Shown: positions 29,194 to 47,253 of the stretch, piece after piece
Layout of the letters: the number at the start of each line of letters is the position of its first letter
Position numbering within the stretch: the first letter of the stretch is position 1
Assembly (NCBI RefSeq): GCF_012163145.1
Contig: NZ_JAAVTX010000001.1
Location: 744,001 to 808,000, forward strand
Source of the DNA: Falsiroseomonas frigidaquae
Lineage (GTDB): Bacteria; Pseudomonadota; Alphaproteobacteria; Acetobacterales; Acetobacteraceae
Direction: 5' to 3'
DNA: 64,000 nt
Position numbers and translations under genes: made by a program
Notes under the pieces: generated by a model
Databases searched by the model: none
What the model was told of the DNA's origin: nothing
Seen by the model: the letters and a program-made list of their open reading frames with translations, nothing else

Positions 29194-30378
29194 CTACGCT
29201 TCCATGGCGGCCAGCAGCGCCTCCGAGGGCTCCACCCCCAGGCCGGGTCCGTCCGGCAGCGTGTAGAAGCCGGCCTCGCATTGCATGTGGCTGCTGCCGG
29301 TAGGGCGGGTCAGGCGCAGGTTCGGGTCGAAGATGCTGTGCTGGTATTCATGCCAGGGCAGCTTCTGCTGGGCGCTGGCGGCCTGCAGGCTGGCCGCCAT
29401 GAACAGGCCGATACCGATGGCCGCATGCGGCATGATCGCAACGTGGTGCGCGTGGCACAGCGCGCCGATTCGGGAAAATTCGGTGATGCCGGTATGGCCC
29501 ATCTCCGGCTGGCCGATCGCCATGCATCGCTGCTGCAGGCGCGGCAGCCATTCGAAGACGGTGCGCAGTTCCTCGCCGAGTGCGATCGGCACGCCGACGC
29601 CGCGCGCGACTTCCGCGACGCCCGCGATATCCTCCGGCGCGCAGGGCGCCTCGGCGAAGGCGAGGCCGTGCGGTTCCAGGCGGCGGATCAGGCGGATCGC
29701 CTCCGCCGCGCTGTTCTTCCAATGCAGGTCGGCCATGATGGCGGCCTTCGGGCCGAGCCCCTCGCGCAGCGCCGCGATCTCCGCCTCCGCACCATCATCG
29801 GCGACGACGGCGGCGAATTTGAAACCGGCGAAGCCGCGCCCCTGCCAGTCCCGCGCGAAGTCCACGCGCTCCGCCAGCGTGGCGCGCGGCAGGCCGGAGA
29901 CATAGGCGGGGATGCGCGCATGGCGCCGCCCGCCCAGCAGGGTGGAGACCGGCACGCCAAGCCGCCGCCCCAGCAGGTCCCACAGCGCGATGTCCACGGC
30001 GGCCAGCGCATCCAGGTAGAAGCCGCCGAAGAAGCCGCGCACGCGCATCAGATCATACAGATCCTCATGGATCATCGCCGGCGCGGAGGGATCCCGGCCT
30101 TCCAGAACCGGCGCCAGCACATCATCCACGATGGCGCGCACGGCTTCCGGCGCGACGATGCCGTAGGTCTCGCCCCAGCCGGTCAGGCCCTGTTCCGTGT
30201 CGATGCGCAGCACGATGCTGCGGTCCTGCGTCGGGTACAGCGTGCGGTTGCCGAGACGGACGATATAGCCGGCGCGGTTGATGAACTCGCCCTCGCGCAG
30301 CGGGCCGAGATAGGGCACCTCGCGCGGGATGGCGATGACATGCGCCGTGACGCGCGTGATCCTGTCAGCGCGCGTCAT
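29194..30378 (-). CDS. enolase-superfamily sugar acid dehydratase-like protein
   Basis: A 394-residue mandelate racemase/muconate lactonising family protein. Metal ligands D217 (M-A-D-L-H), E243 (F-A-E-A-P) and E269 (L-G-E-E-L), the base K187 (G-F-K-F) and H318 (M-P-H-A-A) are all in place. This combination is that of acid-sugar dehydratases, which yield 2-keto-3-deoxy acids. The ATG at 30378 overlaps the aldolase gene stop, so the two are coupled. Together with the lactonase-bearing regulator upstream this makes a lactone, aldonate, keto-deoxy acid, aldol cleavage sequence plausible. The sugar is unknown. Confidence 0.85.
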   Translation of the reverse strand: MTRADRITRVTAHVIAIPREVPYLGPLREGEFINRAGYIVRLGNRTLYPTQDRSIVLRIDTEQGLTGWGETYGIVAPEAVRAIVDDVLAPVLEGRDPSAPAMIHEDLYDLMRVRGFFGGFYLDALAAVDIALWDLLGRRLGVPVSTLLGGRRHARIPAYVSGLPRATLAERVDFARDWQGRGFAGFKFAAVVADDGAEAEIAALREGLGPKAAIMADLHWKNSAAEAIRLIRRLEPHGLAFAEAPCAPEDIAGVAEVARGVGVPIALGEELRTVFEWLPRLQQRCMAIGQPEMGHTGITEFSRIGALCHAHHVAIMPHAAIGIGLFMAASLQAASAQQKLPWHEYQHSIFDPNLRLTRPTGSSHMQCEAGFYTLPDGPGLGVEPSEALLAAMEA

Positions 30379-31286
30379 CGCGGCCGGTGCATCGTCATGC
30401 AGCTGGCCGCGGTGGCGATGAGTTCCCCGATCTGCGCCAGATCGCCCGCATCGAATTTCGGCCCGGCCGCCCGCGCACCGATGTGCTCCAGAAGGCCGCG
30501 CCGCCGCAGCACGTCCTTGGTGGCGCGCACGCGGAAATTCATCTGGAACAGCAGCAGCGGCAGCGTCTCGGTGTAGATGCGCCGCGCCTTCGCCTTGTCG
30601 CCGGCGCGCCACGCCTTCCACAGCGCCGCATGGACATCGGCGATTTCCAGCGCCGGCATGGTGCCGTTGGCGCCCCGCGCCAGCTCATCCAGCACGAAGC
30701 GCGCGCCGGCGCCGCCCATCACGCCATCCAGCCCACCCTGCGCTGCGGCCAGGATGCGGGTGACGTGCTGGCCGCAGGGCAAAGTCTCCTCCTTCACGTA
30801 GCGGATCGCGGGCACCGCCGCCGCCACCGCCGCCACCGCTTCCGGCGACAGCGCCGCGCCATTCGGGGCCGGCGCGTTCTGCAGCATGATCACCAGGCCC
30901 GGCGCCGCATCCGCCACCGCCGTGAAGAAGGCGACCTGCTTCGCGACATCCTGGCCGGCCTGCGGCGGCGCCATGATCATGGCGCAGACGGCGCCGACCG
31001 CCATGCCCTCCCGCGCCCGCGCGGCGCTCTCGGCCGGATCGGCATGGGACGCACCGACGATGAAGGGCAGCCGCCCCGCGAGATGCGCGCCGAGCACGGC
31101 GACCATCTGCCCGCGCTCGGCCGCGCTCAGCGTCTCCACCTCGCTCGCCATGCCGGGGAACACCACGCCATCGACGCCCGCTTCCACGGCGAAGTCGATC
31201 AGCCGCCGGAACGCCGCCTCATCCACCGCATCCTCCGCGGTGAAGGGTGTCGGCAGAACCGGGAAGACACCCGAGAGCCTGTGCAT
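30375..31286 (-). CDS. dihydrodipicolinate synthase family aldolase
   Basis: A 303-residue TIM-barrel class I aldolase/lyase. The Schiff-base lysine is K165 in R-Y-V-K-E-E. The catalytic tyrosine of the usual Y-N-x-P motif is replaced: the segment reads L-Q-N-A-P with Gln at 136. The family's G-x-x-G-E near 45 is also altered (P-G-M-A-S-E). So it is not a lysine-biosynthetic DapA; 2-keto-3-deoxy acid aldolases or dehydratases of sugar acids are closer guesses. It lies 12 bases after the IclR-SMP30 gene and overlaps the dehydratase gene, and GAGGA precedes its start. Confidence 0.85.
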   Translation of the reverse strand: MHRLSGVFPVLPTPFTAEDAVDEAAFRRLIDFAVEAGVDGVVFPGMASEVETLSAAERGQMVAVLGAHLAGRLPFIVGASHADPAESAARAREGMAVGAVCAMIMAPPQAGQDVAKQVAFFTAVADAAPGLVIMLQNAPAPNGAALSPEAVAAVAAAVPAIRYVKEETLPCGQHVTRILAAAQGGLDGVMGGAGARFVLDELARGANGTMPALEIADVHAALWKAWRAGDKAKARRIYTETLPLLLFQMNFRVRATKDVLRRRGLLEHIGARAAGPKFDAGDLAQIGELIATAASCMTMHRPR

Positions 31287-31298
31287 GGAAGAAGATCC

Positions 31299-33008
31299 TC
31301 AGCCGTTGAAGGACGGTTCGGGCAGGCCGCGCGGGCCGCCAATTTCGATGGCGAAGACGGAACCGGAAAGCGGCGCCTCCGCGAGTTCCGCGGCGGACAG
31401 CCGCACGCGGGCACTGGTGACGAACAGCGTGGCAAGGTCGGGGCCACCGAAGGCGCAGCTGGTGGGGCGCGGCACGGGCAGGTTCACGGCGCGGTCCAGC
31501 GTGCCATCCGGCCGGTAGCGCGCGACGCGCCAGCCATCCCACAGCGCCACCCAGACGCAGCCCTCCGCATCCACCGTCAGCCCATCCGGCACGCCCTCCC
31601 CCTCCGCGAAGGCGACGAAGGGGCGGCGGTTGGCGACGGTGCCGGCGGCGAGGTCGAAATCGAACACGTCGATGCGCCGCCGGCCGCTATCGGCCAGGTA
31701 CAGCCGCGCATCATCCGGGCTGAAGCCGATGCCGTTCGCCACATGCAGCCCCGCCTGCATCACCCGCACCTGGCCCGCCGCATCGATGCGATGCAGCGCG
31801 CCGGCATCCGGCGTGGAATCCAGCGCCAGGGAACCCACCCAGAAGCGCCCGGCGCGATCGCATTTCCCATCGTTCAGCCGCAGCGAGGCGCCCTCCGCGA
31901 TCGGCGCCGCCACCACCCGGCCGAGCCCCGCCGCATCCAGCAGCCGCAGGCCGGACCGCGCGGCGGCGACCAGCCCGCCGCCCTGCCGCGGCGCCAGCGC
32001 CGCGACCAGCTCCTCCACCGGAATCACGGCATCCTCGCCGGTCGCGGGATCGCTGACATGCACGGCGGGCGCCAGGATATCGACCCAGTGCAGCCGGCCT
32101 TCATGCCAGAGCGGCCCCTCGCCCAGCAGCGCCTCGGCCCGCACCGCAAGTCGCACGCCCTCGGACACGCTGGCGGGGCGCGGCGCCACCGTCAGCGTCA
32201 TGGCGGATTGGGCGGCGTTGCCGGAGATGCGGCGCGCCGCCTCCATCACCTCCCGCCCCAGCGCATGCAGCCGCGCCTCGCCCAGCCGGAAGGCGGGGCC
32301 GACGAGGCAGATGGTGCCGAGCGGCCGCGCGCGGCGGTCCAGCACCGCGGCGGCCACCGCATTCACCCCGGCGGCGGCTTCCTCCAGCGACAGCGCGTAG
32401 CCGCGTGCCGCGACCAGCGCCAATTCGCGCTCCAGCGCCGGCTGGTCCGTGATGCTGCGCGGGCCGGGGGCGGCAAGCGGCATCAGCCGCTCCATCAGCA
32501 CGCGGCGCTCGGCGGCCGGAAGCTGCGCCAGCATCGCCTTGCCGCAGGCGCTCGCATGCGGCAGGGCGCGGGCGCCGACGCGGTTCACCAGGCGCACCGC
32601 CTCCTGCTCCGTATCGCGCTGGTCGACATAGAGCACGCCATCGCCATCCAGCACGGCCAGCCGCGCGGTCTCGCCGGCAAGGCGCGCCAGGCGCTCCAGC
32701 TCCGGCGCCGCGGTGGCGCGCAGGTCAAAACCGTCCCAGACCCGATGCGCCATCTCCAGGAAACGGGCGCCGAGTGCGTAGGTCTGCGTCGCCGGCTCAT
32801 GCCGCAGCAGCCGCGCCTCCACCAGCGCGGCCAGGATGCGGTGCGCGGTGGGGCGGGCGAGGCCGGCGCGGTCGGCGATCTCGGCGAAGCGCAGCGGCGC
32901 GGGCGCGTCGGCCACCAGGCCGAGCAGCGCGATGCCGCGGGTCAGCGCCTGGGTGCCGGGCACCGAGGCTGCTTCCTCCTCCACCTCCGCCGGTCTGCTG
33001 CGCGCCAT
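31299..33008 (-). CDS. IclR regulator fused to SMP-30/gluconolactonase domain
   Basis: A 569-residue fusion. Residues about 20 to 80 form an IclR winged helix (F-A-E-I-A-D-R-A-G-L-A-R-P-T-A-H-R-I-L) and about 85 to 262 the IclR effector domain. From about 290 to the end is a complete SMP-30 beta-propeller with all four metal-site residues: E297, N379, N425 and D475. Both halves look functional. The ATG at 33008 is chosen because GGGGAG lies 5 bases upstream. It is the first gene of the aldolase-dehydratase operon and divergent from two tctC genes, with a perfect IclR-like palindrome between. I infer a regulator that hydrolyses, or senses, the lactone of the pathway it controls. Confidence 0.9.
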   Translation of the reverse strand: MARSRPAEVEEEAASVPGTQALTRGIALLGLVADAPAPLRFAEIADRAGLARPTAHRILAALVEARLLRHEPATQTYALGARFLEMAHRVWDGFDLRATAAPELERLARLAGETARLAVLDGDGVLYVDQRDTEQEAVRLVNRVGARALPHASACGKAMLAQLPAAERRVLMERLMPLAAPGPRSITDQPALERELALVAARGYALSLEEAAAGVNAVAAAVLDRRARPLGTICLVGPAFRLGEARLHALGREVMEAARRISGNAAQSAMTLTVAPRPASVSEGVRLAVRAEALLGEGPLWHEGRLHWVDILAPAVHVSDPATGEDAVIPVEELVAALAPRQGGGLVAAARSGLRLLDAAGLGRVVAAPIAEGASLRLNDGKCDRAGRFWVGSLALDSTPDAGALHRIDAAGQVRVMQAGLHVANGIGFSPDDARLYLADSGRRRIDVFDFDLAAGTVANRRPFVAFAEGEGVPDGLTVDAEGCVWVALWDGWRVARYRPDGTLDRAVNLPVPRPTSCAFGGPDLATLFVTSARVRLSAAELAEAPLSGSVFAIEIGGPRGLPEPSFNG

Positions 33009-33020
33009 GAATCTCCCCGA

Positions 33021-33063
33021 TTGACCGCCTTCGGTCGTGTCCATATCGTGGAACCAAGTTCCA
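33021..33063 (+). promoter_or_regulatory. sigma70-like promoter overlapped by IclR-type operator
   Basis: TTGACC (33021-33026) and TATCGT (33044-33049) are 17 bp apart and read towards the tctC gene at 33102. A 15-bp dyad, TGGAACCAAGTTCCA, with perfect 6-bp arms lies at 33049-33063, just after the -10 and over the expected start of transcription. It matches the outer part (TGGAA...TTCCA) of the known E. coli IclR consensus. A repressor bound there would block the tctC promoter and, since the gap is only 93 bp, the divergent regulator gene as well. Confidence 0.6.
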
Positions 33064-33101: not shown

Positions 33102-34082
33102 ATGCGCCGCCGCCAGCTCGCAGCCCTCGGCCTCGCCGCCCTCGCAGCGCCCCGCCTCGCCCAGGCGCAGGCCGCTTGGCCGAGCCGGCCGGTGCGCTTC
33201 ATCATTCCCTTCCCGCCCGGCGGCGCGGCGGATCTGGTGGGCCGCATGCTGGCGGCGCATTTCCAGCAGGCCTTCGGCCAGGGCTTCGTGGTGGAGAACC
33301 GCGGCGGCGCCGGCAGCGCCATCGGCGTCGATGCGCTGGCTAAGGCGCCGGCGGATGGCACGGCGGTGGGGATGATCAACATCGCCGCCAACGCCATTCT
33401 GCCCGCCGTGCGCAAGGCGCCGCTGCCCTACCGCCCGATCGAGGACTTTTCCGCAATTTCGAACCTCGCGGTGACGCCTGCCTTGCTGCTGGTGAACCCG
33501 CGCAAGCTGCCAGACGTGAAGACGGTGGCGGACCTGGTCGCTACGGCGAAGGCACGGCCGGAGGCGATCAACTTCGGCTCCTCCGGCGTCGGCTCCTCGC
33601 TGCATCTCGGCATGGAGCTGTTCATGGCCAAGGCCGGCATCCGCATGACGCATGTGCCCTTCGCCGGCGGCGGGCCGCTGCTGCAGGCGCTGCTGGCCGG
33701 CACCATCGATGTCTCGCTGGATGTCGCGGCGACGACCACGCAGCTGATCCGCGATGGCCAGATCCGCGCCCTGGCCACCACCGCCCCCGCGCGCATGCCG
33801 GCCTATCCGGACCTGCCGGCGCTGAACGAGACCTATCCGGGTGCGGAACTCGCCTCCTGGCACGGCCTCGCCGCCCCGGCCGGTACGCCCGCGCCGATCC
33901 TGGCGCGGCTGTCGGCGGAAACGCAGGCCTTCCTGCGCAATCCGGAGACGGTGCAGCGCTACACGCAGCTTTCCCTGGAGATGCCGCAGCATACCACGCC
34001 GGCCGATTTCAGCGCCTTCATGGCACGGGAACTCGCGACCTTCCGCGACCTCGCCCGCGCCCAGAACATCGTGGTGGAGTGA
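33102..34082 (+). CDS. TctC/Bug-family solute-binding protein
   Basis: A 326-residue exported Bug protein. M-R-R-R-Q-L-A-A-L-G-L starts a twin-arginine-like signal ending near L-A-Q-A-Q. The mature part has P-S-R-P-V-R-F-I-I-P-F-P-P-G-G-A-A-D and V-V-E-N-R-G-G-A-G. The P-D-G-Y motif is changed to P-A-D-G-T-A. The ATG has an AGGAGG site. It is the first gene after the promoter/operator shared with the IclR-SMP30 fusion and is followed directly by a second tctC gene. It is likely the receptor for the sugar acid or lactone of that system. Confidence 0.93.
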   Translation: MRRRQLAALGLAALAAPRLAQAQAAWPSRPVRFIIPFPPGGAADLVGRMLAAHFQQAFGQGFVVENRGGAGSAIGVDALAKAPADGTAVGMINIAANAILPAVRKAPLPYRPIEDFSAISNLAVTPALLLVNPRKLPDVKTVADLVATAKARPEAINFGSSGVGSSLHLGMELFMAKAGIRMTHVPFAGGGPLLQALLAGTIDVSLDVAATTTQLIRDGQIRALATTAPARMPAYPDLPALNETYPGAELASWHGLAAPAGTPAPILARLSAETQAFLRNPETVQRYTQLSLEMPQHTTPADFSAFMARELATFRDLARAQNIVVE

Positions 34083-34087
34083 CGCGC

Positions 34088-35053
34088 ATGAATCGCCGAA
34101 CCCTGCTGGCCGCCGGGCTTGCCCTGCCCTTCGCCGCACCCTTCCCCGCGCGGGCGCAAGGCTGGCCAGAGCGTCCGGTGACCCTGGTCGTCGGCTACGG
34201 CGCCGGTGGCGCGACGGACATCATCGCGCGGACCCTGGCGGAGCGGATGCAGCCGCTGCTCGGCCAGCCGATGGTGGTGCAGAACCAGCCCGGGGCCGGC
34301 GGCACCATCGCCTCCGACCGCGTCGCCAAGGCGGCGCCGGATGGCACCACCATCATGCTGATCGCCAATGCGCATGCGGTGGCGCCGGGCCTTTATGCAC
34401 GGCTGCCCTATGATACGGCCGGCGATTTCGCCGCCGTGTTCTTCGCCGGCAATTCGGCGAATGTGCTGGTGGTGCCCGCCGCCGCGCCGGACCGCGACCT
34501 GGCGGCGCTGGTCGCGCGTGGCAAGGCTTCCGCCACGCCCCTGCAGACCGGCAGCGCCGCGCTGGCCGGCTGGCAGCCCGCGCACCAGATCATGAAGGAA
34601 GCCTACGGCCTGGCGCTGGAACATGTGCCCTATCGCAGCGGCCCGCAGGGGCAGACGGACCTGATCGCCGGGCGGCTCGACTTCATGGTGAGCAACGTGC
34701 TGGAGGTGGCGGAGCATGTCCGCGCCGGGCGGCTGCGCGCGCTCGCCGTCACCAGTCCGACGCGCAGCCCCCTGCTGCCGGAGGTTCCGACCTTCGCCGA
34801 GCTGGGCGTCGCCGCCCTGCAATCCGATAGCTGGTTCGGCATCCTCGCCCCCCGCGCGGCGCCAGCGGCGGCGCTGGAGCGGCTGCACGGCGCCTTCACC
34901 CAGGTGGCGGCAATGCCGGAGGTGCAGGCGCGCCTCGGCACGCTGGGCCTGATCCCGAAGCCTATGGGGCGGGAGGAGTGGGGCCGCTTCTATCTGGCGG
35001 AGGTGGAACGCTGGTCCGCCGTGCCACGCCGGGCGGGCATCCGCATCGACTAG
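34088..35053 (+). CDS. TctC/Bug-family solute-binding protein
   Basis: A 321-residue exported Bug protein. N-R-R-T-L-L-A-A-G-L-A-L-P is the signal, with cleavage near A-R-A-Q-G-W. P-E-R-P-V-T-L-V-V-G-Y-G-A-G-G-A-T-D and V-V-Q-N-Q-P-G-A-G-G are the family segments. The ATG at 34088 is favoured over a GTG at 34079 that would overlap the preceding stop. It is the second of a tandem tctC pair. The two differ clearly in sequence, so they are not a recent duplication. Confidence 0.92.
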   Translation: MNRRTLLAAGLALPFAAPFPARAQGWPERPVTLVVGYGAGGATDIIARTLAERMQPLLGQPMVVQNQPGAGGTIASDRVAKAAPDGTTIMLIANAHAVAPGLYARLPYDTAGDFAAVFFAGNSANVLVVPAAAPDRDLAALVARGKASATPLQTGSAALAGWQPAHQIMKEAYGLALEHVPYRSGPQGQTDLIAGRLDFMVSNVLEVAEHVRAGRLRALAVTSPTRSPLLPEVPTFAELGVAALQSDSWFGILAPRAAPAAALERLHGAFTQVAAMPEVQARLGTLGLIPKPMGREEWGRFYLAEVERWSAVPRRAGIRID

Positions 35054-37079: not shown

Positions 37080-38075
37080 CTATTCCGCGCGGATATTCGC
37101 GCGCTGGATGACGTCCCGCCACGCGGCGATGTCGCGGCGCAAGGTCGCGCCGAACTCCTCCGGCCCCAGCCCGCGCGGGACCATGCCCAGCGCCAGCAGC
37201 CGGTCGCGCAGACCGGGTTCGGCCAGCGCCCCGCGCACCGCCTCCGCCATGCGCGCCTGGATCGGGGCAGGCAGCCGGGCGGGCGCCATCAGGCCGAGCC
37301 AGAACTCATTGGCGAAGTCCGGCAGCCCGCTTTCGCCGATGGTCGGCACCTGCGGCAGCAGCGGCGCGCGTTCCGCGCTGGTCACCGCCAGGGCGCGCAG
37401 CTTGCCATCCTCCACCAGGCCGCGGGAGCCGGGGATGGTGTCGAAGATGAACTGGATGTCGTTCTGCATCAGCGCGGTCACGGAAGGCCCGCCGCCGCGA
37501 TAGGGCACATGCACCATCTGGGTGCGCGCCTGCAGGGCGAACAGCTCCCCGATCAGATGGCCGGAAGACCCGGTGCCGGCGGAGCCGAAATTCACCTTGC
37601 CCGGATTGGCTCGCGCATAGGCGATCAGCTCCCCCACATCGCGCGCCGGCAGCGTGGGATTGACCACCAGCAGATAGGGTCCGGTGACCAGCAGGGAGAC
37701 CGGCACCAGGTCGGTCAGCACATTGTAGGGCAGGTTCTGCTTGAAGCTCGGCTCCGTCGCCAGGACCGAGGTGTGGAACAGGAAGGTGCTGCCATCCGGC
37801 GCGGCGCGCGTCACCGATTCGGTGCCGATCGACCCGGCCGCACCGGCGCGGTTCTCCACCACCACGGGCTGGCCGAGGCGGGTCTGCAGCTCGGCCGCCA
37901 GCAGCCGCGCCACCGGGTCCGTGGACCCGCCGGGGGGATAGGGCACGACGATGCGGATGGGCCGGTCCGGCCAGGCGGCTTGCGCCCCGGCGCTGCGCAC
38001 CAGGGCGGGGGCTCCCAGCATGGCGGTGGCCATGCCCACCAGACGAACAGCCTGCCTGCGGCCCAGCTTGTGCAT
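37080..38075 (-). CDS. TctC/Bug-family solute-binding protein
   Basis: A 331-residue exported Bug protein. The signal contains G-R-R-Q-A-V-R-L-V-G-M and is cleaved near A-G-A-Q-A-A-W. P-D-R-P-I-R-I-V-V-P-Y-P-P-G-G-S-T-D and V-V-V-E-N-R-A-G-A-A-G are the family motifs. AAGGGGGAA precedes the start. It is followed 16 bases later by the exported MBL-fold gene, forming a two-gene operon, and is divergent from the tctC gene at 38311. Two dyads sharing the same half-sites lie in that gap. Confidence 0.93.
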   Translation of the reverse strand: MHKLGRRQAVRLVGMATAMLGAPALVRSAGAQAAWPDRPIRIVVPYPPGGSTDPVARLLAAELQTRLGQPVVVENRAGAAGSIGTESVTRAAPDGSTFLFHTSVLATEPSFKQNLPYNVLTDLVPVSLLVTGPYLLVVNPTLPARDVGELIAYARANPGKVNFGSAGTGSSGHLIGELFALQARTQMVHVPYRGGGPSVTALMQNDIQFIFDTIPGSRGLVEDGKLRALAVTSAERAPLLPQVPTIGESGLPDFANEFWLGLMAPARLPAPIQARMAEAVRGALAEPGLRDRLLALGMVPRGLGPEEFGATLRRDIAAWRDVIQRANIRAE

Positions 38076-38167
38076 CGACGCTTCCCCCTTCGTCCCGTGC
38101 CGCCACGCGGCCGGGTTGCCGTGACGTTAGGCATGGCGCGGCGGCGGGAGAATGTCGTTCCGCAGCA

Positions 38168-38231
38168 CGGCATCCTTGCGCCGGATGAAAGGATGCGGGC
38201 GCCGGCCCGGCGTTGCATCCAGAGCAAGGAT
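38168..38231. promoter_or_regulatory. two dyads with shared GCATCC half-sites
   Basis: Between two divergent tctC genes are an inverted repeat GCATCCTT (38168-38175) with AAGGATGC (38187-38194), and a second one GCATCC (38213-38218) with GGATGC (38226-38231). The dyad centres are 41 bp apart, near four helical turns. Repeated half-sites in a divergent promoter region suggest operators for a regulator encoded elsewhere, since none is adjacent. The rest of the 235-bp gap holds nothing else I can name. Confidence 0.4.
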
Positions 38232-38310
38232 GCTGCTCATCCGCTGCACGTTGTCCGCCCCTGCCCCGCGCCGCAAGACTGACGGCAAGACCAGCCGGGA
38301 GGAGAGATCG

Positions 38311-39282
38311 ATGCAGGCGACCCGCCGCGGAGTGCTGGGAATGGGGGCAGGCCTCGTGCTGTCCGCGCCCGCAATCGCGCAAGCCCCCTTCCCCAACCGC
38401 CCCATCCGCTTCGTGGTGCCCTTCGCCCCCGCCGGCGGCAGCGACATCGTCGCCCGCCTGCTGGTGGAGGAGCTGACGCCGCGCCTCGGCCAGCCGCTGA
38501 TCGTGGAGAACCGGCCGGGCCAGGCGGCCTCGGTGGGTGCCGCGCATGTCGCGCAGCAGCCGCCGGATGGCTACACCATCCTCATCTGCACCCCCGGCGT
38601 GCAGATGACCAACCCCTTCCTCTACAGCAACCTGCCCTATGATGCGGAGCGCGGCTTCACGCCGATCGTCCACATCGCCTACCTGCCCAATATCCTGGTG
38701 GTGCATCCCAGCCTGCCGGTGCGGAATGTGGCGGAGTTCATCGCCCATACACGGGCCAACCCGGACAAGCTGAGCTTCTCCTCCACCGGCCCCGGCAGTT
38801 CCAGCCACCTGGCGATGGAGCTGTTCATGAGCATGAGCGGCACGCGGATGACGCATGTGCCCTATCGCAGCTCTGGCCAGGCGCTGATCGACCTGATGGC
38901 GGGCCGCGTGCAGGTCAGCCTGGACAGCTTCGCGGCGATGATCCCGGCGGTGCGCGCTGGCCATCTGCGCGTGCTCGGCATCTCCACCGCGCGGCCGCTG
39001 GAGGATCATCCGGAGATCCCGGCCATCGCCGAGACACTGGAAGGCTATGAGGGCACCACCCTGCTCTACATGCTTGGCCCGGCAGGCATGCCGCCCGCCG
39101 TGGTGCAGCGGCTGAACGTGGCCTTCAACGAGGTGCTGGCCCTGCCACGCATCCGCGGACGGTTCCGGGAGATGGGCATGGCGGCCTCCGGCGGCTCGCC
39201 GGAGGAGCTGGCGCAGGTGATCACGGAAGGCCGCACGAAATGGCGGGCGGTGATCGAGCGTGCCGCGGTGAAGCTGGATTGA
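38311..39282 (+). CDS. TctC/Bug-family solute-binding protein
   Basis: A 323-residue exported Bug protein. T-R-R-G-V-L-G-M-G-A-G-L-V-L-S starts the signal, cleaved near A-I-A-Q-A-P. P-N-R-P-I-R-F-V-V-P-F-A-P-A-G-G-S-D, V-E-N-R-P-G-Q and P-P-D-G-Y-T-I-L are the family segments. GGGAGGAGAG is a strong ribosome site. It opens an operon with an enoyl-CoA hydratase, two hot-dog subunits and a CoA-transferase, all in tight succession, so it is likely the receptor for the acid they degrade. Confidence 0.93.
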   Translation: MQATRRGVLGMGAGLVLSAPAIAQAPFPNRPIRFVVPFAPAGGSDIVARLLVEELTPRLGQPLIVENRPGQAASVGAAHVAQQPPDGYTILICTPGVQMTNPFLYSNLPYDAERGFTPIVHIAYLPNILVVHPSLPVRNVAEFIAHTRANPDKLSFSSTGPGSSSHLAMELFMSMSGTRMTHVPYRSSGQALIDLMAGRVQVSLDSFAAMIPAVRAGHLRVLGISTARPLEDHPEIPAIAETLEGYEGTTLLYMLGPAGMPPAVVQRLNVAFNEVLALPRIRGRFREMGMAASGGSPEELAQVITEGRTKWRAVIERAAVKLD

Positions 39283-46326: not shown

Positions 46327-47253
46327 TCAGGCGTGGGAGAACATGGCGCGGCCCGGCACCGGCATGCGCACCCGCATCACGGAGGCCGTGGAGGCTTCCA
46401 GGATGAACAGGTCGCGCCGGTCTGGCCCGCCATAGGCGATGTTGGTCACGGATTTGCCGGTGCAGGATCGGATGCGCAGCAGGGGCTCGCCATCCGGGGA
46501 GAACAGCCAGACCGTGCCGTTGCGGGCATGCGCCACGGCAATGTTGCCCGCCTCGTCCAGCGCCAGGCCATCCGGCCCCAGGCCGCCGCTGAGCTGGATG
46601 AAGAGGTCGATCTGCCGCGAAGCCGCATCGCCCGCGGCGGGAAAACGCCACACCGCATTGCCGCGCGTCACGCCGACCAGCAGGTTGTGGCCGTCGTGAT
46701 CCAGCACCAGGCCGTTCGGCGTTGGCGCATTGTTGATCAGCAGTTCCGCGGAGCCACCCGCCGGTGGAATGCGGAAGACCCGGCCGGTCGGATCGCCCAG
46801 ATGGCTGCGCCCGGGATCGGTGAGGTAGAGCGTCCCGTCGGGGCCGAAGAACAGGTCGTTCGGCCCACGGAATCGCTCGGCATTCGGGCGGGTCACGTAG
46901 GGCCGGACGATCTTCTCCTCCGGATGCATCACCATGATCCCGTGTGCCCTGTCGGCCAGGAAGATGCGGCCGTCGCGGTGGATCTTCAGCCCGTTGGGCT
47001 CACCCTCATACTGCGTGACGAGCACCCAGCGGCCGCCCGGGTCGATGCGAAAGATCCGTCCATGCGGGATGTCGGTGCACCAGAGGTGGCCGTCGCGGTC
47101 GAAGGACGGTCCCTCCAGGAAGGAGTGCACAGGCCCTGCCGCATGCGCGCGGCTCTGCGCCCAGAAACTTGAGGGACCGCGCCAGCGCAGATCCTCCGGC
47201 AGGGCGGTGAAGAGTTCCGCCTGCAGCTCCTCAGGGCGCGACATGTCACGCAT
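46327..47253 (-). CDS. SMP-30/gluconolactonase family protein
   Basis: A 308-residue six-bladed propeller lactonase. Metal and active-site residues E47 (L-E-G-P-S), N132 (G-P-N-D-L), N180 (T-P-N-G-L) and D228 (G-P-D-G-L) are all present. No signal peptide, so it acts in the cytoplasm. The ATG at 47253 overlaps the aldolase stop by eight bases; a second ATG at 47244 would leave no overlap. It would hydrolyse a sugar or hydroxy acid lactone. It is the free-standing counterpart of the domain fused to the IclR regulator at 31299. Confidence 0.88.
   Translation of the reverse strand: MRDMSRPEELQAELFTALPEDLRWRGPSSFWAQSRAHAAGPVHSFLEGPSFDRDGHLWCTDIPHGRIFRIDPGGRWVLVTQYEGEPNGLKIHRDGRIFLADRAHGIMVMHPEEKIVRPYVTRPNAERFRGPNDLFFGPDGTLYLTDPGRSHLGDPTGRVFRIPPAGGSAELLINNAPTPNGLVLDHDGHNLLVGVTRGNAVWRFPAAGDAASRQIDLFIQLSGGLGPDGLALDEAGNIAVAHARNGTVWLFSPDGEPLLRIRSCTGKSVTNIAYGGPDRRDLFILEASTASVMRVRMPVPGRAMFSHA

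Follow-up and report, generated by a model that had tools for sequence, protein, structure and literature searches.

The window analysed here is a 64,000-nucleotide stretch of the Falsiroseomonas frigidaquae genome, and the genes of interest are a minus-strand gene for an IclR-family regulator joined to an SMP-30 propeller, the two genes downstream of it, and a divergently transcribed pair of genes for periplasmic binding proteins:

29194..30378, minus strand: enolase-superfamily MR_MLE protein, probable sugar-acid dehydratase (PF13378/PF02746)
30375..31286, minus strand: DHDPS-family lyase, 2-keto-3-deoxy-acid aldolase or dehydratase type (PF00701)
31299..33008, minus strand: fusion gene, IclR regulator plus SMP-30/gluconolactonase propeller, 569 aa (open frame, Pfam, model)
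32793..32948, minus strand: HTH_IclR DNA-binding domain of the fusion, residues 21-72 (Pfam PF09339)
32223..32741, minus strand: IclR_C effector domain of the fusion, residues 90-262 (Pfam PF01614)
31407..32126, minus strand: SGL propeller of the fusion, residues 295-534, with metal residues E297, N379, N425 and D475
33102..34082, plus strand: divergent TctC periplasmic binding protein 1 (PF03401)
34079..35053, plus strand: divergent TctC periplasmic binding protein 2 (PF03401)

The fusion is encoded in a single open frame, and both Pfam and a structure model place an IclR helix-turn-helix, an IclR effector domain and an SMP-30 propeller in that order from the N- to the C-terminus. The HTH_IclR and IclR_C domains both score above their curated cut-offs for membership of the IclR family, and the full-length SGL domain with its propeller fold belongs to the SMP-30/gluconolactonase/LRE family, with the xylonolactonase 7plb as its best structural match. 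All four residues of the lactonase metal site are present, and the original prediction of an IclR regulator fused to a full SMP-30 domain with E297, N379, N425 and D475 intact is thus confirmed. The best NCBIfam match of the whole protein is the BhcR model NF045644, but at 164.7 bits against an equivalog cut-off of 350 it is not a member; no lactonase-specific model was reported in the same search.

By their layout the fusion, DHDPS-family and MR_MLE genes form a single predicted transcription unit with the fusion first: the DHDPS-family gene begins 12 nt past the fusion stop codon, and it overlaps the MR_MLE gene by 4 nt. The best PDB relatives of the DHDPS-family lyase are entries for L-2-keto-3-deoxyarabonate dehydratase (7c0c/3fkk). 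The MR_MLE gene has the galactonate dehydratase model NF010624 as its best NCBIfam match (175.5 bits versus a cut-off of 311), which makes it a relative rather than a member, and the PDB entries nearest to its product are unnamed isomerases/enolases (2ppg, 4h1z, 2nql, 4dn1). Elsewhere in the window there is a stand-alone SMP-30/gluconolactonase domain at 46396-47115, ~14 kb from the fusion, and two more ORFs look like TctC/Bug-type proteins by translation (37080-38075 on the minus strand, and within 38152-39282 on the plus strand). The genome has seven SGL places in all; no regulator was recognised by eye among the ORFs at the long-frame places L002 and L003, and no match to the IclR half at E <= 1e-8 lies at another SGL place.

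The same fusion is found in other genomes. The frame is unbroken over both halves in 115 of 118 homologous loci (95 of 96 distinct proteins) in Alpha- and Gammaproteobacteria, including complete plasmid and chromosome records, and the joint is kept in homologues that are 31–95% identical to the window protein. The exceptions are of two types. First, L071 and L116, which are one MAG contig (Falsiroseomonas sp. C8_maxbin.050), have a single in-frame stop, which is either real decay or an assembly error. Second, the frame of the MAG locus L186 breaks off near the C-terminus. Breaks such as these are what would be expected if the fusion were an artefact, with separate regulator and lactonase genes combined by a missed stop, a frameshift or an assembly join; however, the 115 unbroken loci rule this out, purifying selection acts on both halves (see below), and we regard an artefact as extremely improbable.

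The genome scan took the best 80 of 395 relatives, and among these are fusions in Falsiroseomonas, Pseudoroseomonas, Rhizobium, Microvirga, Devosia, Bosea, Sphingomonas, Martelella and Rhodobacteraceae, together with the gammaproteobacterial Stenotrophomonas, Tahibacter, Paraglaciecola and a SAR92 bacterium; the homologues were drawn by their similarity to the window protein and are not a random survey. Within the genus there is an orthologue in 13 of 16 genomes, with three further copies at 56–59% identity. Outside it the fusion is uncommon and its distribution is patchy: of 384 other genomes sampled from the class, 5 have a full-length match at E <= 1e-60, and of 397 sampled from the phylum, 2 do. 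Among 922 plasmid records with a match, 141 contain one place that covers at least 80% of the query. One example is pSymA of S. meliloti 1021, where the frame is intact; a literature search by presumed locus tags found no relevant paper on this gene.

The E/N/N/D metal site is complete in 88 of 97 distinct fusions, and R377, D380, D440 and R534 are also invariant in these 88. The original prediction named two outcomes that would count against it, a missed stop or frameshift between the domains and loss of the metal residues in most homologues, and in view of the unbroken loci and the retained sites neither has occurred. Nine fusions are altered. In three from sister Pseudoroseomonas with the same operon layout (L107, L126 and L127) the only change among the four residues is D475N, L091 has a change of D to A, and L097 has changes of E to D and D to S. 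A stand-alone lactonase that might compensate for D475N is present near L107, but none was found in the fetched flanks of L126 and L127, and compensation of this kind was rejected as a general explanation. The remaining four form a small Roseomonadaceae clade in which all four metal residues are gone:

8235-9899 of L093, 8196-9851 of L094, 7937-9592 of L095 and 8380-10044 of L096: fully altered fusions

The median dN/dS within this clade (6 pairs) is 0.129 for the IclR half and 0.264 for the propeller. The propeller is thus under purifying selection without a catalytic site, so that something besides lactonase chemistry maintains it, and no other observation speaks as strongly against a purely catalytic role of the domain. 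It favours an alternative in which the propeller serves as an additional ligand-sensing domain or mediates oligomerisation, with catalysis incidental or lost and the protein purely a regulator. However, the whole site is kept in the great majority of the fusions, and the fully altered clade is rare, with representatives in 4 of 348 genomes of the family (E <= 1e-90).

The two halves have evolved together. In a tree with 48 stand-alone SMP-30 domains the fused propellers occupy one side of a branch (SH-aLRT 99), which argues for a single fusion event in the sample, and for the propeller half a single origin appears clear. The tree of the IclR half has two label changes, with L093-L096 placed outside the rest by a weakly supported branch, and this clade may have a separate origin. 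Distances between the two halves are correlated (0.85 for 37 cluster representatives), and a chance juxtaposition was rejected on the basis of this correlation and the grouping of the propellers. Over 66 pairs from the window genus, the IclR half has a median dN/dS of 0.145 and the propeller one of 0.248; the propeller evolves faster, with both halves under purifying selection. A further alternative is a fusion of convenience, in which two independent activities were joined only for co-expression and the halves do not communicate. Structure comparison shows both domains to be complete and to resemble a free-standing IclR regulator and XylC, and the linker between them (approximately residues 266–283) is variable in the alignment and has lower pLDDT in the model. 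The persistence of the joint across such a wide range of identity speaks against it, although weakly, as long conservation need not imply communication, and we consider a fusion of this type possible but somewhat doubtful.

The genes surrounding the homologues suggest a pathway. In the fetched flanks of 87 intact fusions there are MR genes at 78 loci, DHDPS at 59, SDR at 58 and a separate SGL at 3, and the corresponding numbers for the nine altered fusions are 6, 4, 1 and 1; these are classes assigned by BLAST against 21 reference proteins, such that unrelated or distant neighbours do not appear and some flanks are short. At 56 of the 58 SDR-bearing intact loci the SDR gene is on the same strand shortly downstream of the fusion. 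A frequent layout has an MR gene transcribed away from a rightward series of the fusion, an ABC-ATPase, the SDR, a binding protein, permeases, DHDPS and a second MR gene, and in a second frequent layout DHDPS, MR, transporter, dehydrogenase, fusion and SDR genes follow one another in the same direction. The SDRs of L152 (285.5 bits) and L170 (263.8 bits) match best to the D-xylose 1-dehydrogenase model, below its cut-off of 400, and the solved structure with a named function that is nearest to the L152 protein is sulfoquinovose 1-dehydrogenase (9gwu). All of the SDR, dehydratase and DHDPS-family proteins tested score under their best NCBIfam cut-offs. At 55 of the 58 SDR-bearing intact loci no separate SMP-30 gene was found in the fetched flanks (SMP-30 family only). 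Because a sugar-dehydrogenase-like SDR is frequent and a separate SMP-30 gene is mostly missing, the fusion probably supplies the lactonase step, and among SMP-30 genes the fused domain is the leading lactonase candidate at these loci. The predicted pathway would convert an aldose to a lactone (SDR), the lactone to an acid (fused propeller) and the acid to a 2-keto-3-deoxy acid (MR enzyme), which the DHDPS enzyme would then cleave or dehydrate.

The window operon departs from this arrangement. A Pfam scan of it revealed no sugar dehydrogenase, and in the clusters of the genus TctC proteins are present and neither an SDR nor a sugar ABC transporter was found. Carboxylates are the usual ligands of TctC proteins, and with no sugar dehydrogenase in the operon it is not evident why this lineage would need a lactonase: either the lactone enters by import or is produced elsewhere, or the propeller has changed its role. 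The lack of a sugar dehydrogenase is a further point for the propeller as a sensor or oligomerisation module, in addition to the altered sites. Set against it is the association of an SDR with 58 of 87 intact fusions compared with 1 of 9 altered ones, as expected if the site is kept where lactone is made, although the altered fusions are a small and related set, and the proteins of the window genus keep an intact site with no SDR close by. On balance we consider a purely regulatory propeller rather unlikely.

The region between the fusion gene and the divergent TctC genes contains a candidate operator, the perfect 6-3-6 palindrome TGGAACCAAGTTCCA, with a possible additional half-site nearby:

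33049..33063, no strand: operator candidate, perfect palindrome TGGAAC-CAA-GTTCCA, found from the sequence; the only exact copy in the genome, conserved in the genus
33038..33043, no strand: possible third half-site TGTCCA, 5 nt from the palindrome and weaker (composite score 10/12, shuffle p 0.025)

This is the sole exact match to TGGAAC-N3-GTTCCA in the 6.08 Mb genome (97.9% complete), and there are one-mismatch matches at five further places. Of 14 genomes of the same genus that were searched, 11 have an orthologue, and in 10 of these the exact palindrome precedes the fusion (the eleventh, G262 with L183, has one mismatch); it is absent from all three without an orthologue. This presence/absence test is partly circular, as the box is part of the promoter of the operon itself. 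The exact box is also retained in the MAG whose fusion frame is broken (L071), and two same-genus genomes each have one extra exact copy elsewhere. More broadly, a box with at most two mismatches lies within 200 nt upstream of the fusion start at 57 of 96 loci, and at 32 of them it is exact. When the loci are grouped at 75% identity, 24 of 37 clusters have a box and 13 lack one, compared with 48 hits in 1440 stretches of 175 nt placed at random in the same loci; this count is of TGGAAC-type boxes with 3- or 5-nt spacers and allows the upstream DHDPS promoter, which gave any cluster with two promoters a second chance. In Devosia (L180-L182 and L184), where the fusion is internal to the operon, GTTCCA-N5-TGGAAC is instead directly before the first gene. 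Such a distribution would be expected of a box that belongs to the operon's regulator, although another regulator may read the same TGGAAC-type box. The three D475N fusions of Pseudoroseomonas have only weak forms (3–4 mismatches), and the third half-site beats shuffled sequences in some lineages only.

The recognition helix offers suggestive evidence of covariation with the half-site at residue 56: the box is present in 21 of the 28 clusters with His at this residue and in 3 of the 9 with another amino acid (Fisher p 0.042, with no correction for relatedness and with some promoters of first genes truncated). We also note that L189, L193 and L195, which have Ser or Ala at this position, have an exact GTATCA-N5-TGATAC palindrome before the first operon gene in place of the GTTCCA/TGGAAC type, a possible specificity switch associated with Ala/Ser56. 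A palindrome at the regulator's own or divergent promoter is a trait of the IclR family that the fusion shares at the level of a sequence site. The original prediction had assigned control of the operon to the fusion by gene position; local control now appears likely from the conserved operator-like palindrome in the divergent promoter, with binding itself predicted.

A simple explanation of these features, and one that we consider reasonably probable, is that the fusion is an autoregulated IclR regulator that also supplies the predicted lactonase of its own pathway. DNA binding, catalysis, substrate, effector and any coupling of the halves are all predicted in this account, in which a single protein would serve one sugar-acid pathway in two ways. 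Its IclR half would bind the palindrome between the divergent promoters, and a small-molecule effector would decide its control of its own operon (fusion, DHDPS-family lyase and dehydratase) and of the two TctC genes. The C-terminal propeller would act as a metal-dependent lactonase, opening a sugar lactone to an aldonic acid that the dehydratase and the DHDPS enzyme would then degrade. As the regulator is the first gene of the operon, lactonase supply would rise and fall with operon expression.

The original prediction suggested that the regulator could read out flux or destroy its own inducer. A version of this kind is a self-clearing switch, in which lactone acts as the inducer and is destroyed by the propeller, so that the regulator would end its own induction. 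The covalent joining of a lactonase-like domain to the regulator in a fixed 1:1 ratio and the one conserved palindrome in the shared promoter are consistent with this, and lactone would have to reach the IclR domain. Glyoxylate, pyruvate and other keto acids are often the effectors of IclR relatives, and here these would be downstream products; we think such a switch unlikely. Doubtful, too, is a wider evolutionary version, in which a broad but patchy family has propeller catalysis set the level of the molecule sensed by the regulator, as a self-clearing or flux-reading switch, and the fold later became a non-catalytic sensor in more than one lineage. The explanations overlap, and both self-clearing and a lack of crosstalk between the halves are compatible with our preferred account of an autoregulated regulator that supplies a lactonase.

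The pairing of a probable sugar-pathway switch with a likely enzyme of the same pathway, kept in diverse bacteria, provides a natural test case for the merging of enzymes and regulators, and if both halves work it would be a compact link between pathway enzyme supply and gene control. The TGGAAC-N3-GTTCCA site is a ready operator candidate for testing or sensor design. With intact, D475N and fully altered members in one family, natural proteins offer a direct test of a debated point in the evolution of regulators, namely whether loss of activity is required before an enzyme domain can serve as a sensor; were the wider evolutionary version true, these would be a living series from enzyme-regulator to pure regulator. 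Current annotation tends to hide the family: the fusion is named 'SMP-30/gluconolactonase/LRE family protein' in six annotated records (L107-L112) and 'helix-turn-helix domain-containing protein' in two other plasmid records, and since either name covers one domain the other half is invisible. The IclR-SMP-30 architecture is likely listed in domain-architecture databases.

Several known systems are informative for comparison. The IclR-family regulators to which we liken the fusion include T. maritima IclR (1mkm), A. tumefaciens BlcR (3mq0) and BhcR, none of which is known to have an enzyme domain. XylC of Caulobacter crescentus is a free-standing protein. Its structures (7plb/7plc) belong to the same SMP-30/gluconolactonase family as the fused propeller, which by contrast follows a complete IclR regulator. 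Trigger enzymes, as reportedly set out by Commichau and Stulke in 2008, combine in one protein a role in metabolism and control of the genes of the pathway; both activities have been measured for the established examples, whereas both activities of the fusion are predicted from sequence.

A full-text search of PMC found no description of an IclR-SMP-30 fusion, and the available portions of PMC papers naming both IclR and gluconolactonase describe none. According to the available text on Roseobacter litoralis (PMC3141670), galactose cluster 1 of this organism has a putative gluconolactonase, a short-chain dehydrogenase, an ABC transporter and an IclR-family regulator, with the regulator and the gluconolactonase annotated as separate genes, and it represents an unfused counterpart. 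Unions of regulators with enzymes are already known. BzdR likewise joins DNA binding to an enzyme fold in a natural protein; in the available text of its description (PMC3602430) it has an HTH and a shikimate-kinase-like domain with no detectable kinase activity, and the authors hold that loss of activity was essential for the enzyme domain to turn regulatory. As far as that text goes, there are two differences: here the enzyme comes on top of a regulator complete with an effector domain of its own, and the catalytic residues are retained in most of the sampled fusions, alongside family members that look inactive. A BzdR-like loss of these residues is seen in the related clade L093-L096 and not in the window protein.
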